64,000 bases of DNA from a bacterium. GTDB taxonomy: Bacteria; Myxococcota; UBA727; JAUIJE01. The translations under genes and the position numbers were made by a program. Location: NCBI GenBank assembly GCA_030431455.1, contig JAUIJE010000004.1, forward strand, positions 1 through 64,000. The letters run 5' to 3'. Shown one piece after another: positions 9,642-15,343 of the stretch. Within the stretch, counting starts at the first letter, position 1. Each line of letters begins with the position of its first letter. The notes below the pieces were generated by a model. That model saw nothing but the letters and a program-made list of their open reading frames with translations, was not told where the DNA came from and did no database searches.

Positions 9642-10667
9642 ATGCCCAGCATTCACACACACACCACCTCGACCCCCTCCCCCGTGCGCCCGACCACCCC
9701 GGTGCTGCCCACCCCGCCGTCCGGCGACATCCCGGTGACCCCCGCGCGCGCCGCGGTGTTCGACCCGACCCCGGCCCACACCGGGCCGCTGGCCGGTCCC
9801 GTGTCCGGGGCGATGGGCCCGTTGGCCACCCGGCTCTCCACGGTTTTGCCCACCGGCTACAGCCTGCCCAAGACCGTCCCGCTCGGCGCCGCCACCATCC
9901 ACCGGTACGACGATCACCGGGTCAGCCCCCCCACCATCGCGGTGACGGTGTGGGCCCCGATCGCCCCCGCCGGCTCCGGCGGCAAAGTGCAGAACCTCAA
10001 CGAGGCTGACTATGCAGCGCCATTGCCGGACCGGTTCATCCTCACCGACGCCGGCCTGAGCCGTTGTTTCATCGGGGTGGACAAACGGCCGGGCACGCCG
10101 CTGGCCAAGAAGCTCGACGAGCTCGTGGCCCAGATTCCCACCAACCCCGCGGGGGGCATCGACGCCGACGCCGCCATTGAGTGGGTGCGGGCCAACGTCA
10201 ACCAGCTCATCAAGTGGACCGCGGGCAGCTCGGCCAACGACGGCCGGGCCGAGTTCGACTGGGACAAAGCCATCGACGTGCCCCAATCGGTGTGGAGCAC
10301 CTTCAGCAATGTCGCGTTCCGCGAGGTCGGGCACGCCCCCGAGGCCGCCGGCGCCGACTACCCGGTGGTGCCCTTCGAGAACTACATCGAGGCCGGCCAA
10401 GGCTACTGCATCCAGAAGGCGGTGTTGGCCGCGCTCATCCTCGACAAGGTCGGGGTCCCGAGCAAAATCGTCAACGGCGCGGTGGCCCAAGGCCCGGGCA
10501 AGACCGTGGGCCACACCTGGGTCGAGCTTGCCGACGGGCGCGTACTCGACGCGGCCTGGAGCCGGGTGTCGGCCAAGGGCCCGTCCCCGGACGGCTTCCC
10601 CGACCGCTACCGGTTCGGGGGCTCGGACCGGTTCGCCAACCAGTCGTTCCCGTATCTCGTGCTGTAG
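9642..10667 (+). CDS. Transglutaminase-like cysteine protein
   Basis: 341 residues. The C-terminal 110 residues carry the transglutaminase-like triad: Cys in GQGYCIQKAVLAAL, His in TVGHTWVEL and Asp in RVLDAAWSR. These give a papain-like fold used by proteases, amidases and cross-linkers in bacteria. The first 60 residues are Pro/Thr-rich and no signal peptide is evident, so the protein may be cytoplasmic or exported by another route. It is followed after 13 bp by the convergent pirin gene. Function beyond the fold is unknown; the second protein of this superfamily in the window (54306-55718) differs in architecture. Confidence 0.75.
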   Translation: MPSIHTHTTSTPSPVRPTTPVLPTPPSGDIPVTPARAAVFDPTPAHTGPLAGPVSGAMGPLATRLSTVLPTGYSLPKTVPLGAATIHRYDDHRVSPPTIAVTVWAPIAPAGSGGKVQNLNEADYAAPLPDRFILTDAGLSRCFIGVDKRPGTPLAKKLDELVAQIPTNPAGGIDADAAIEWVRANVNQLIKWTAGSSANDGRAEFDWDKAIDVPQSVWSTFSNVAFREVGHAPEAAGADYPVVPFENYIEAGQGYCIQKAVLAALILDKVGVPSKIVNGAVAQGPGKTVGHTWVELADGRVLDAAWSRVSAKGPSPDGFPDRYRFGGSDRFANQSFPYLVL

Positions 10668-10680
10668 CGTGGGGTGCGCT

Positions 10681-11382
10681 TTAGCCGAGGTCGAACACCA
10701 AGACCTCGGCCCCGTCGGCGGCGCCCTCGAGGGTGAACGTGCCGCCCTGGGTGCGGGACGCGCCGTCCCCCGCCGACAAGCTCTGGTCGTCGAGACGAAC
10801 GTCACCGCGGGCGACGTGGACCCAGCTGCCCCGGCCGGGGGCGAGGGTGTGCGAGACGGCTTGGCCGGGGGCGAGCACGCTCGCGTACAGCTTGGCGTCC
10901 TGGCCAATGGCAATGGATCCGAGGGCGCCGTCGGGGGACGCGACCAGGCGCAACGTGCCCTGGCGCTCGTCGAGCGGAACATGGATCTGGTGGTAGGCGG
11001 GGGCTTTGCCCCGGCGCTCGGGGAGCACCCAGATTTGCAGGAAGTGGACCTCCTCATCGGGGTCGGCGTTGAACTCGCTGTGCAACACCCCCGTGCCCGC
11101 GCTCATGTGCTGCACATCGCCGGGGCGGATGACGCCGCCGCCCCCGGTGGTGTCCTTGTGGCGCAGGGCGCCGTCGAGCACGTAGGTGATGATCTCCATG
11201 TCCTGGTGGGGGTGGGTGCCAAACCCGGCGCCCCCCGCGACCCGGTCGTCGTTGATCACGCGCAGGGGGCCGAAGCCCATGTGTTCGGGGTCGTGGTACG
11301 CCGCGAACGAGAACGTGTGGTGGGTGTTGAGCCAGCCATGGTCGGCGTGACCGCGTTCGGCGGCCGGTCGGATGGTCCACAT
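10681..11382 (-). CDS. Pirin family protein (cupin)
   Basis: A 233-residue bicupin of normal pirin length. Metal-binding residues are visible in GTHPHQDMEI and GVLHSEFN, matching the His2-His-Glu set of pirins. Bacterial pirins such as YhhW can oxidise quercetin or sit near quinone-stress genes. The start is ATG 11382, which has GAGGAGG seven bases upstream; a longer frame to 11556 runs back into the upstream gene and lacks pirin sequence. It lies 50 bp downstream of the dioxygenase fusion on the same strand, so the two are probably co-transcribed and share a role in aromatic or quinone chemistry. Confidence 0.92.
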   Translation of the reverse strand: MWTIRPAAERGHADHGWLNTHHTFSFAAYHDPEHMGFGPLRVINDDRVAGGAGFGTHPHQDMEIITYVLDGALRHKDTTGGGGVIRPGDVQHMSAGTGVLHSEFNADPDEEVHFLQIWVLPERRGKAPAYHQIHVPLDERQGTLRLVASPDGALGSIAIGQDAKLYASVLAPGQAVSHTLAPGRGSWVHVARGDVRLDDQSLSAGDGASRTQGGTFTLEGAADGAEVLVFDLG

Positions 11383-11432: not shown

Positions 11433-14333
11433 CTAGGACGGGACGAAGCGGCGGGGCACCGCGCCCCACACCGTGGGCCAATCCCCGCGCCGCTCGGGGG
11501 CGGTCTTGGCCCACGGGGTGAGGCCAAAGGGCAGCGCGGTCTCGAACTGAAACCACAAGGAGCGGTCGTCGGTGCGTACCGGGCGGTCGGCGTCGTCATC
11601 GTCCCGGGCCAGGTGGCTATCCACAGTACGAGCCAACACCCCGTGGGGGGTCATGGATGGGGTCACAAACAACATGCCGGCCTCGAAGGGCGCGCTGAGG
11701 CCCGGGCTGCGGACAATGCCGTTGATCTCGGTGGTGACGTTGCGGTGAAAGTACGGGGGGCGGAAGGTGTGCTCGGTGGGGTCCCACCGGGGCGGGAACA
11801 CCACCAGGTCCAGGGCGTGGGCCCCGGTCTCGTCGAGGGCGGCGGACACCACCGTGAACGCCGAGGGGTCGGTGTGGTCGACGCGGGTGTTGCTCACGGG
11901 CACGAACCGTTCGAGGTCGTAGACGTAGGGCACGTAGTTGCCGTGCCAGCCGACGACGTCGTACGGGCTGAAGTCCTGGGTGGTCTCGTAGACCGCGCCC
12001 CCCATCTTGGCGGTGAGGCGGTACCCGGGGGCGAGCCGGTCCTCGTAGAACCGCGCCGGTCCGGTGAAGTGGCGCTCGTCGGCGAGCCCGTTGGCGCCCA
12101 CCGGGCCCCGGTCGGGGAGGCGGAAGTGGCGGGCGAACACCTCGGCCACGTAACCCCCCGCCGACGGGTCGTGCAGCAGCACGGTGAAGCGGAGGCCGCG
12201 GGGGATGATCAGCACGTCGCCCGGCCCCGCGTCGAGGCTGCCGAGCTCGGTGAGCACGGTGAGCCGGCCATGATCGGGGACAATGAGCAGGTCGCCGTCC
12301 GCGTTGGTGAAGGCGCGGTCGGTCATGTCCGCGTTGGCCCGGTAAAAGTGCACCGCGTAGCCGCGGCGGAGGGCGGGGTGGCCGGCGCCCCCCACCGTGA
12401 TCAGCCCGTCGACGAAGTCGGTGTGGGGGGCCGGCTCGTCCGGACGATTCCATGCTTCCAGATTTATCGTACCGACGTCGTCGAACCCGCTGCACAGGGT
12501 TGGGTGGGCCAAGGGGGCGTAGGCCCGGGGCTGGGCCGCGGGGCGGATGCGGTACAGCCAGGTCCGGAGGTTCTCGTCGCGGGGGGCGACAAAACCGGTG
12601 CCCGAGATCTGTTCGGCGTAGAGCCCGTAGGGGGCGTGCCGGGGGTTGTTCTGTGCGGGGGGGACCGCGCCGGGCAGGGCCTCGGCTTGGTGGTGGGCGC
12701 CGAAGCCATGGGGGATCGTCGCCGGGGCCTGCCCGAGCAGGCGGCGCATCCACAGGCGGTCGCGATCGGTGAGCGCGTGGTCGGTCCCGGGCCGGGACAG
12801 GGCGCGGACGTCCGCCCCGGCGTCGCGCAACGCGCCGGCGGTGGTGGTCACGTCGTCGTGGGCGACCCACCGGTCGCCCTCGGCCAACGAGAGCAGCACG
12901 AACCGCCCATCCAGGTCGGGCAGGTCCTTTTGTGCCGCGGGGGGGAGGGCACCGGCGGGGGCGAGCACCCCCGCGACCGCGGCGCCGTCGGCGAGCAGAC
13001 GCAAGGCGAGGCAGGCGCCCTGGGAAAAACCGTAGAGCACAATGTCGGCCTGGGGCGCTTCGGCGCGTACCTCGTCGAGCACCCGGCGCACCCGGGTCAT
13101 CGCGCCCTCGAGCTGGGGCCCGAGCTCGGCTGCAGGGGCATTGTAGGCGGCACGGTACCAGGCGCCGCCGTCGGCCTGGGGCGCGACCACGGCCAGACCC
13201 GGGGCGTGGCCGGTGGCGTGGCGCACGTGGCCGATGACCGAGCTGGCTTCGGCGCCCCGGCCGTGCAGGGCCACGACCACGGTCTGGGCCTGGTCGAGGT
13301 CGCCGCTTCGCAGGGCGGGCCCGCCGCCGACGGGGGTGCGGACCACGTCGTGCGCGGGGCGCCACCCAAAAAGGGCGGCGGGGGCAAAGGCCGCGGGCAG
13401 TCCCGCGTCGGCCACCGCCCCGGCCACCGCGTCGAGGTCGAGGTCGAGGTCCTTCAGGGCCACCGGCAGGCCCACGCGCCGGAGGGTGTCGTGCACGCTG
13501 GCGGCGAGGTCCGGGTCGCGGGCCTCGTCGTCGATGCGCGCGGCGAGCGCCGGGTCGGTCTCGCGCAGGTGGGCCAGGGTCTGGGGCAAGAGCACCGCGT
13601 GCAAGCTGGCGTGGGGGAGGTCGTGGGTCCCGCCGAGGCGGTGGGCGAGCCGGTGGTGCGCGCCCATGGGGTGGGCGTCGAGGACGCGGGCGCAGCGGGC
13701 GGCGGCCGCCAGGCCTGCGGCGAGCGCGGTCGGGGCGGCGGGCGCCGCCACCACCTGGCGGAGGGCAAACGCGGCCGCCTTCACCGCGCGCAGGGCGGTG
13801 GGCACATCCGCGTCGGGCAGACCGGTGGACAAGGCGCTCACGGGGTGGGCAAGGGCATTGGCCAGGCTCGCCACCGCGGTCGCCGGGGGCAAGCTTTGGA
13901 GCAGGGCGGGGTCGTGCACCACCACGTCGGGCCGGGCCGCGGGGTCGCGGCCGGTGACCTTTTCGCCCGCGTCGGTGATGCCAAAGATCGAGGTGAGCTC
14001 CGAGCCGGCGAAGGTGGTGGCCACCGCGGCCAAGCGAACGTCGGGGCGGGCCCGCTTGAGGGCCTTGCCGAGCCCGGTGGCCGATCCCCCACCGAGGGTG
14101 AGCAGGGTGTTGGCCTGGGCCTGGTCGAGGGCGGCCACGGCCGCGTCCACCGTCGCCTGGGGCACGTGGACCTGGGCCTGGTCGAACACCGTGACCGGGA
14201 TGTCGCCGAGGGCGGCGCGGACCGCGTCGAGATGGCGGCGCCGGGGGGTGGTGAGCACCAAGACCCGCGGGCGCGCGGGCAGCGCGGCGGGGAGCGCGCG
14301 CAAATGGGACAGGATGGTGGGGGCGCCAGGCAT
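11433..14333 (-). CDS. Three-module fusion: maleylacetate reductase, alpha/beta hydrolase, homogentisate-type dioxygenase
   Basis: One uninterrupted 966-residue frame holds three enzymes. Residues about 1-345 are an iron-alcohol-dehydrogenase-type maleylacetate reductase (LLTLGGGSATGLGK, AGSELTSIFGIT, GRDPAARPDVVVHDP, and the His-rich HHRLAHRLGGTHDLPH). Residues about 345-560 are a carboxylesterase/phospholipase-type hydrolase (ALHGRGAE, nucleophile GFSQGA, Asp in EGDRW, His in GTDHAL), like MhqD. Residues about 560-966 are a homogentisate 1,2-dioxygenase (APRDENLRTWLYRIRP, FPPRW, FRPPYFHRN) with iron ligands at about His863, Glu869 and His897. ATG 14333 is chosen over 14372 because AGGAGG lies just upstream. 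Likely an aromatic para-diol degradation or detoxification enzyme; substrate unproven. Confidence 0.9.
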   Translation of the reverse strand: MPGAPTILSHLRALPAALPARPRVLVLTTPRRRHLDAVRAALGDIPVTVFDQAQVHVPQATVDAAVAALDQAQANTLLTLGGGSATGLGKALKRARPDVRLAAVATTFAGSELTSIFGITDAGEKVTGRDPAARPDVVVHDPALLQSLPPATAVASLANALAHPVSALSTGLPDADVPTALRAVKAAAFALRQVVAAPAAPTALAAGLAAAARCARVLDAHPMGAHHRLAHRLGGTHDLPHASLHAVLLPQTLAHLRETDPALAARIDDEARDPDLAASVHDTLRRVGLPVALKDLDLDLDAVAGAVADAGLPAAFAPAALFGWRPAHDVVRTPVGGGPALRSGDLDQAQTVVVALHGRGAEASSVIGHVRHATGHAPGLAVVAPQADGGAWYRAAYNAPAAELGPQLEGAMTRVRRVLDEVRAEAPQADIVLYGFSQGACLALRLLADGAAVAGVLAPAGALPPAAQKDLPDLDGRFVLLSLAEGDRWVAHDDVTTTAGALRDAGADVRALSRPGTDHALTDRDRLWMRRLLGQAPATIPHGFGAHHQAEALPGAVPPAQNNPRHAPYGLYAEQISGTGFVAPRDENLRTWLYRIRPAAQPRAYAPLAHPTLCSGFDDVGTINLEAWNRPDEPAPHTDFVDGLITVGGAGHPALRRGYAVHFYRANADMTDRAFTNADGDLLIVPDHGRLTVLTELGSLDAGPGDVLIIPRGLRFTVLLHDPSAGGYVAEVFARHFRLPDRGPVGANGLADERHFTGPARFYEDRLAPGYRLTAKMGGAVYETTQDFSPYDVVGWHGNYVPYVYDLERFVPVSNTRVDHTDPSAFTVVSAALDETGAHALDLVVFPPRWDPTEHTFRPPYFHRNVTTEINGIVRSPGLSAPFEAGMLFVTPSMTPHGVLARTVDSHLARDDDDADRPVRTDDRSLWFQFETALPFGLTPWAKTAPERRGDWPTVWGAVPRRFVPS

Positions 14334-14370: not shown

Positions 14371-14411
14371 ATGTATCGAAGAAAATGAAAGGTTATGATG
14401 ATATGTATCGA
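14371..14411. promoter_or_regulatory. Candidate LysR operator: direct repeat of ATGTATCGA
   Basis: The 86-bp divergent intergenic region is strikingly A+T-rich. It contains two identical copies of ATGTATCGA at 14371-14379 and 14403-14411, 32 bp apart (about three helical turns). LysR regulators commonly bind such divergent regions to control both themselves and the neighbour, so this is a plausible control site for the fusion gene and lysR. Confidence 0.45.
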
Positions 14412-14419
14412 GCTGATTG

Positions 14420-15343
14420 ATGATTGATCCCCGCGCCCTCACCCTCGAGCAGCTCCGCACCTTGGTCGCCATCGCCGAGGTGGGTTCGTTTTCGCGGGCC
14501 GGCCGGCGGCTCGGGCGGGTGCAGTCGGCGGTGAGCCACACCGTGGCCCGGCTCGAGGACGAACTGGGGCTGTTGCTGTTCGACCGGCGGGCCCGCACCC
14601 CGCGCCTCACCGAGGCGGGGGAGGCGGTGGTGGGCGCGGCCCGGGAGACGCTGGCCGCGGTGGACGAGCTGGTGCGCTTGGCGGGGTCGTTGGCGTCGGG
14701 CCTCGAGGCGGAGGTCAGCATCGTGTTCGACGCGATCTTCCCCGCCGAGGGCTTGGCCGAGCTGGCGCGGTGCTTTGCCCGGGAATTCCCGCAGGTGGGG
14801 CTGCGCATCGGCACAGAGACATTGGGGGCGGTGAGCCTGGCGGTGCACCGCGGCACCTACCGCCTGGGGGTGTGCGGGCCCGCCGCGCCATTGCCCGACG
14901 GGGTCGAGGCGGCCCACGTCGGGACCGTGCGCATGGTCCCGGTGGCGGCCCCCGACCATCCCCTGGCGCACAGCCCCGCGCCCATCGGGCTGCGGACCCT
15001 GCGGCGCCACACCCAGATCGTGCTCAGTGAGCGGGGCCGCGACGTCGAGGAGGTCGACGACGTGGCCGTGCTCAGCGCCCGGACCTGGCGGGTGGTGAGC
15101 CTGCCGACCAAGCACGTGCTGCTGCGCCAAGGCCTCGGCTGGGGCAATCTCCCCGAGCACCTCGCGGCCCCCGACGTGGCCGAAGGCCGCCTTGTGCCAT
15201 TGACATTGCGGGCGTGGGGCCGGGACGAACACCTGCTCAACCTGCGGGTGGTGCACCGGGTGGACGAGCCCCTGGGCCCGGCCGCGGAGTGGGTGATGGG
15301 GCTCTTGCCCGAGCTGTGCCTGGCCGGCGCGGGCCTCGCTTGA
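14420..15343 (+). CDS. LysR-family transcriptional regulator
   Basis: 307 residues, standard LysR length. The N-terminal winged helix-turn-helix (about residues 8-66) contains SFSRAGRRLGRVQSAVSHTVARLEDELG, the family signature, followed by a coiled linker and a substrate-binding-like effector domain. ATG 14420 is preferred over the TTG immediately before it. It is divergent from the ring-cleavage fusion, an arrangement typical of LysR activators of aromatic catabolism, so it probably senses an aromatic or quinone ligand and controls the fusion and pirin genes. Effector unknown. Confidence 0.92.
   Translation: MIDPRALTLEQLRTLVAIAEVGSFSRAGRRLGRVQSAVSHTVARLEDELGLLLFDRRARTPRLTEAGEAVVGAARETLAAVDELVRLAGSLASGLEAEVSIVFDAIFPAEGLAELARCFAREFPQVGLRIGTETLGAVSLAVHRGTYRLGVCGPAAPLPDGVEAAHVGTVRMVPVAAPDHPLAHSPAPIGLRTLRRHTQIVLSERGRDVEEVDDVAVLSARTWRVVSLPTKHVLLRQGLGWGNLPEHLAAPDVAEGRLVPLTLRAWGRDEHLLNLRVVHRVDEPLGPAAEWVMGLLPELCLAGAGLA

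Follow-up and report, generated by a model that had tools for sequence, protein, structure and literature searches.

What a single bacterial polypeptide joining three enzymes that are usually encoded separately would act upon, and what it would produce, is the question raised by a 966-codon gene of a myxococcote bacterium. The gene lies in the 64,000-nucleotide stretch of DNA that was analyzed here (hereinafter, the window), where the relevant features are the following:

10681..11382, minus strand: pirin/quercetinase-like bicupin gene (Pfam Pirin, Pirin_C_2), downstream of the fusion gene after a 50 bp gap
11433..14333, minus strand: predicted trifunctional fusion gene, 966 codons (open frame, AGGAGG near the start, full-length fusion homologues)
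11439..12710, minus strand: ring-cleavage dioxygenase domain of the homogentisate dioxygenase (HGD) family, without the Y-[DE]-A-K motif (HgmA_N/C, TIGR01015, tree, AF2)
12729..13301, minus strand: alpha/beta hydrolase domain of the phospholipase/carboxylesterase type, with a triad of the GFSQG Ser, Asp and His (PF02230; 4h0c)
13368..14321, minus strand: maleylacetate reductase (MAR) domain of the Fe-ADH family (PF00465/PF25137; PDB 3hl0, 3w5s, 3jzd; Foldseek)
14371..14411, no strand: divergent promoter region holding a ATGTATCGA direct repeat in two copies, 32 bp apart (repeat search)
14420..15343, plus strand: LysR-family regulator, divergent from the fusion (Pfam HTH_1, LysR_substrate)

The sequence-only reading of this DNA had described three enzymes in one stop-free frame, and this description is borne out by the frame itself, which contains no internal stop across 14372-11433 of the minus strand (979 codons), and by the Pfam domains, which follow one another in one chain in the order Fe-ADH and ADH_Fe_C, Abhydrolase_2/DLH, and HgmA_N and HgmA_C. 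The start at ATG 14333, which gives the 966 codons originally assumed, is a better choice than ATG 14372 because AGGAGG (14343-14338) is located just 5' of the former whereas the latter has no such site. A 935-codon plus-strand frame opposite the fusion is discarded as a high-GC shadow, all homology being on the minus strand. A frameshift or assembly artefact is ruled out because the triple fusion is found again in many genomes; for the assembly of the window genome, completeness is 96.9% and contamination 0.24%. The fusion is genuine, and it is conserved among relatives.

The identities of the three domains are secure. In the PDB, the N-terminal part is matched best by maleylacetate reductases (3jzd, 3hl0, 3w5s), the hydrolase by the carboxylesterase 4h0c, and the dioxygenase by HGDs (1ey2, 3zds). 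The MAR domain shares 32-34% identity with 3hl0 and 3w5s, the Fe-ADH fold nearest to that of the solved MARs, a GGGS motif and a His-rich motif of the LHHK.CH.LGG type, but differs from these enzymes in forming the N-terminal part of a fusion; in the window, no gene for an intradiol dioxygenase was noticed next to the fusion. Maleylacetate reductases are also the top Foldseek matches of the MAR part of the full-length AF2 model, which was built from a 6-sequence alignment and in which the HGD part is poor (pLDDT about 30). When folded alone with a 52-sequence alignment, from which four rows from plasmid records were left out, the HGD domain reached a pLDDT of 92 and superimposed on human HGD 1ey2 with Z 53 and an rmsd of 1.3; together with the HgmA_N/HgmA_C bicupin matches and the aligned His/Glu/His ligands, this model places the domain within the HGD superfamily. 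The catalytic residues that had been ascribed to each module were all located (numbering of the 979-residue form; subtract 13 for the 966-residue form): the MAR histidines H176/H240/H244/H254/H258, the hydrolase triad S450/D500/H532, and the iron ligands H876/E882/H910 with the second-shell H810. All of these are invariant in an alignment of the first six fusions, and the hydrolase triad and MAR motifs hold across a wider set of family members. The iron ligands are kept throughout the 31-member HGD clade except in one relative (L156:6011-7678), where Tyr (TAYGV) takes the place of the last His; the gene of this relative ends at a contig edge and is possibly degenerate.

A search for the same architecture, as the sequence-only reading had suggested, recovered 16 other full-length, single-frame triple fusions with identical domain order and about 39-52% identity (L002/L030, L021-L024, L144-L149, L151-L155), and three more that are cut at contig ends (L150, L156, L157). 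The hosts, where named, are Myxococcota, along with one gammaproteobacterial MAG (L022). The wider family includes six relatives with MAR fused to HGD and no hydrolase (L158-L162, L164), adjacent but separate MAR and HGD genes (L165, L166), a MAR-hydrolase fusion plus an HGD in Plesiocystis pacifica (L026/L168), and solo HGDs (L163, L167). No recurrent hydrolase partner was found in the MAR-HGD operons, the one COesterase gene detected lying beside L159 on the opposite strand. The MAR tree is broadly congruent with the HGD tree, the window and its closest triple fusions falling within one clade, and from this congruence the two domains appear to have travelled together. Around one solo HGD of the fusion clade (L163:8024-9646), BLAST and HMM comparisons found no MAR, hydrolase, pirin or CoA-transferase nearby.

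The dioxygenase had been called homogentisate-type, a label that holds for the fold but fails for the substrate. The domain resembles HmgA (3zds, 1ey2) in its fold (Z 51-53), its His/Glu/His iron ligands and the catalytic His288, but it is fused, only about 41% identical, and scores 422.9 bits on the hmgA equivalog model TIGR01015, below the cut-off of 510.75. Moreover, fusion-type HGDs form a separate clade with 100/100 support, and Tyr346, Lys349 and His361 (P. putida numbering) are absent in 31/31 of its members, position 361 being occupied by Thr or Ser, whereas all stand-alone HGDs and HmgAs compared have G-x-Y-[DE]-A-K (YDAK or YEAK) and SLH with His361. Tyr346 and Lys349 are the residues that we take to bind the homogentisate carboxylate. 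The human equivalent of His361, His365, has been proposed to be an acid-base residue (PMC4019311). Its score, its clade and the loss of both the Tyr/Lys motif and the second-shell His exclude the HGD domain from HmgA. The YDAK motif is likewise lacking in PDB 9pz4. Plasmid-borne HGDs were considered and set aside, given that the inspected annotated matches were named HmgA and that every extracted sequence has the YDAK motif; one such plasmid HmgA is accompanied by FAH, HPPD and an isomerase.

With respect to the product, the evidence comes from the gene context of relatives. In L021 and L024, the fusion homology is preceded, at about 110 bp, by a BKACE gene of the same strand; the two BKACE proteins reach 455 and 460 bits, against a cut-off of 350, on the model NF053568, '3-oxoadipate:acetyl-CoA acetyltransferase'. 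PcaI/PcaJ-family CoA-transferase genes follow L155, the contig-edge fusion L157 and the solo HGD L167. Genes for 3-oxoadipate utilization thus adjoin family members in five relatives only, two of these being the BKACE cases, and none lies beside the window fusion; in the window genome, pcaIJ-family CoA-transferases are encoded elsewhere, away from the fusion. Across the 28 genomes with family members, none of the four with a protein above the NF053568 cut-off (G034, G195, G196, G198) has a PF01144 CoA-transferase, which is present in 23 of the remaining 24 (hypergeometric p about 2e-4, with phylogeny ignored and the genomes not fully independent). Such alternation fits a requirement of 3-oxoadipate for one activator or the other. 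In Methylobacterium, BKACE is thought to replace pcaIJ on 3-oxoadipate (PMC8963497); those beta-ketoadipate clusters similarly have BKACE in the place of pcaIJ beside a 3-oxoadipate-forming pathway, but there the upstream route is that of protocatechuate, whereas here it is the fusion, and BKACE is found in relatives rather than in the window. Given this context in relatives, 3-oxoadipate is the likely product.

Combining this product with the three activities, we hypothesize that the fusion is a trifunctional enzyme that would convert a methoxylated 1,4-hydroquinone to 3-oxoadipate, a reading in which both the substrate and the order of steps are deduced and to which we assign a probability of about 0.52. 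Our best guess for the substrate would be methoxyhydroquinone, possibly 2,6-dimethoxyhydroquinone. The C-terminal HGD-family domain would use O2 to open the ring between C-OH and C-OCH3, yielding maleylacetate 6-methyl ester; the N-terminal MAR domain would then reduce the C=C bond with NAD(P)H, and the middle carboxylesterase-type domain would remove methanol to give 3-oxoadipate, which the pcaIJ-family CoA-transferases encoded elsewhere in the genome could activate. A chemical precedent comes from Aspergillus niger, in which MhdA, annotated as a homogentisate dioxygenase, opens methoxyhydroquinone to 4-hydroxy-6-methoxy-6-oxohexa-2,4-dienoate, a MAR homologue has been proposed to reduce this product, and the carboxylesterase OmeA, encoded next to mhdA, takes off the methyl group to give 3-oxoadipate (PMC8336404). 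The two routes share an HGD-family dioxygenase, a MAR homologue, a carboxylesterase and the end product, but the fungal one consists of separate eukaryotic genes with a proposed reductase (PMC8336404), whereas the fusion is bacterial and single-chain; the match is drawn at the level of activities. Furthermore, a later fungal methoxyhydroquinone dioxygenase, as cited in PMC12915361, is reported to act on methoxy- and dimethoxyhydroquinone without prior demethylation. More tentatively, at somewhat less than even odds, we propose that the fusions constitute an unrecognized single-chain family, present in Myxococcota and at least one gammaproteobacterium, that would perform a whole ring-cleavage branch, from methoxyhydroquinone to 3-oxoadipate and methanol, with no need for an O-demethylase; the reactive maleylacetate ester might be channelled among the three fused active sites. 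Our literature search returned no title or abstract on point for fused maleylacetate reductases.

The sequence-only reading had noticed that plain hydroquinone leaves one step missing and had favored a substituted, for instance hydroxylated, hydroquinone. A substituted substrate agrees with the 3-oxoadipate-linked gene context, but the hydroxylated form is displaced by methoxyhydroquinone, which gives the hydrolase a role. With hydroxyquinol (1,2,4-trihydroxybenzene), HGD-type cleavage between adjacent hydroxylated carbons would yield maleylacetate, which MAR would reduce to 3-oxoadipate, while the hydrolase would perform a side task, for example on lactones or esters. The product being the same, the 3-oxoadipate context fits this substrate equally well, and it would also account for the MAR-HGD members without a hydrolase; yet the hydrolase triad, kept in the triple fusions examined, is left without a job. 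We consider hydroxyquinol unlikely, and the methoxylated substrate the better fit, because an ester bond explains the hydrolase, which hydroxyquinol does not need. Several observations count against the methoxyhydroquinone reading nonetheless, among them the restriction of adjoining 3-oxoadipate genes to five relatives. The six hydrolase-free relatives imply that the hydrolase is not required for every substrate of the family; for these members, hydroxyquinol may be the substrate, or a separate esterase may be used. A search of the window genome at E <= 1e-15 found no FAD_binding_3 flavin hydroxylase, so that the cell may obtain its hydroquinone from the surroundings. Finally, the reading leaves unexplained a recurrent module of CoA-ligase, citryl-CoA-lyase-like, GST and VOC genes beside several relatives.

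The same lack of a flavin hydroxylase at that threshold would suit a role in detoxification of environmental hydroquinones or quinones, whether plain, methyl-substituted or chlorinated, as in the Bacillus Mhq regulon; the three domains would then scavenge the reactive products of ring cleavage. The pirin neighbor in seven loci would suit this role too, as would the hydrolase, which is of the same broad alpha/beta-hydrolase type as MhqD. The resemblance to MhqD noted previously stands at the level of the family, in fold and Ser-Asp-His triad, but its extension to the regulon does not: the hydrolase is embedded in a fusion, no MhqR/MarR was seen that would place the gene under a MarR-type MhqR, the adjacent regulator is a LysR, and the context is catabolic, relatives being flanked by 3-oxoadipate-using enzymes and aromatic-catabolism regulators. 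Moreover, plain hydroquinone would give 4-hydroxymuconic semialdehyde, which needs a dehydrogenase absent from the fusion, and we regard detoxification as a rather poor prospect, below hydroxyquinol. Least probable, in our estimate, is a GSH-free homogentisate route, in which HGD would form maleylacetoacetate, MAR would reduce it to succinylacetoacetate, and the hydrolase would release succinate and acetoacetate. No HGD besides the fusion was found in the window genome, which does encode an HPPD-like protein; likewise, a search of five further fusion genomes turned up no second HGD, and the scoAB-type CoA-transferase genes could also take acetoacetate. Nevertheless, the HGD domain falls under the HmgA cut-off and the Tyr/Lys motif and second-shell His are lost clade-wide, the adjacent BKACE of relatives is of the 3-oxoadipate type, and the HPPD-like gene has a homogentisate phytyltransferase gene as its neighbor, which makes homogentisate look anabolic in this genome.

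If the methoxyhydroquinone reading is correct, the fusion would give bacteria, within a single polypeptide, a methoxyhydroquinone branch of lignin degradation whose chemical counterpart is the fungal route, methoxylated hydroquinones being products of lignin breakdown. Reportedly, a P. chrysosporium MHQD was the subject of work by Kato in 2024, and that of Shettigar in 2018 is said to have dealt with pinoresinol. The reading would also remove a class of mis-annotation, in which such genes are taken for homogentisate dioxygenases or alcohol dehydrogenases, and would supply a biocatalyst ready for use on guaiacyl and syringyl hydroquinones, as well as a clean system for testing channelling between fused catabolic enzymes. 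The alternation of BKACE and CoA-transferase renders the product prediction directly testable.

As for regulation, the pirin gene is likely part of the same operon as the fusion, and the divergent LysR probably controls this operon. The ATGTATCGA repeats are possible candidates for LysR sites, a short two-copy repeat being of a kind that can arise by chance. The regulators of relatives are of the LysR or XylR types: LysR proteins 43-44% identical to that of the window occur in the fusion-linked operons of L146 and L155, and in L149 and L158 the pirin-fusion operon is flanked by a divergent gene for a XylR_N/sigma-54 regulator of aromatic catabolism. Besides the window, pirin adjoins L149, L154, L158, L165, L166 and L167. 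In the window, a transglutaminase-like gene (9642-10667, plus strand) converges on the pirin gene, with 13 bp between their ends. The module with the CoA-ligase, the citryl-CoA-lyase-like gene, a maiA-like GST and VOC lies, whole or partial, beside L021, L144, L146, L152, L155, L161 and L164 (for example, L146:3930-7478, L144:3100-7321 and L021:10725-14667) and is partly present at L156 and L162; it might constitute a second branch, serving a different product of ring cleavage. Elsewhere in the window genome, the HPPD-like gene (L032, G000:C8 about 518930-520006) is flanked by the homogentisate phytyltransferase gene (340 bits against a cut-off of 226) and a UbiA-type-looking prenyltransferase gene, with a polyprenyl-synthase-like gene nearby, and in its gene content this locus resembles a biosynthetic cluster of the tocopherol or plastoquinone type.
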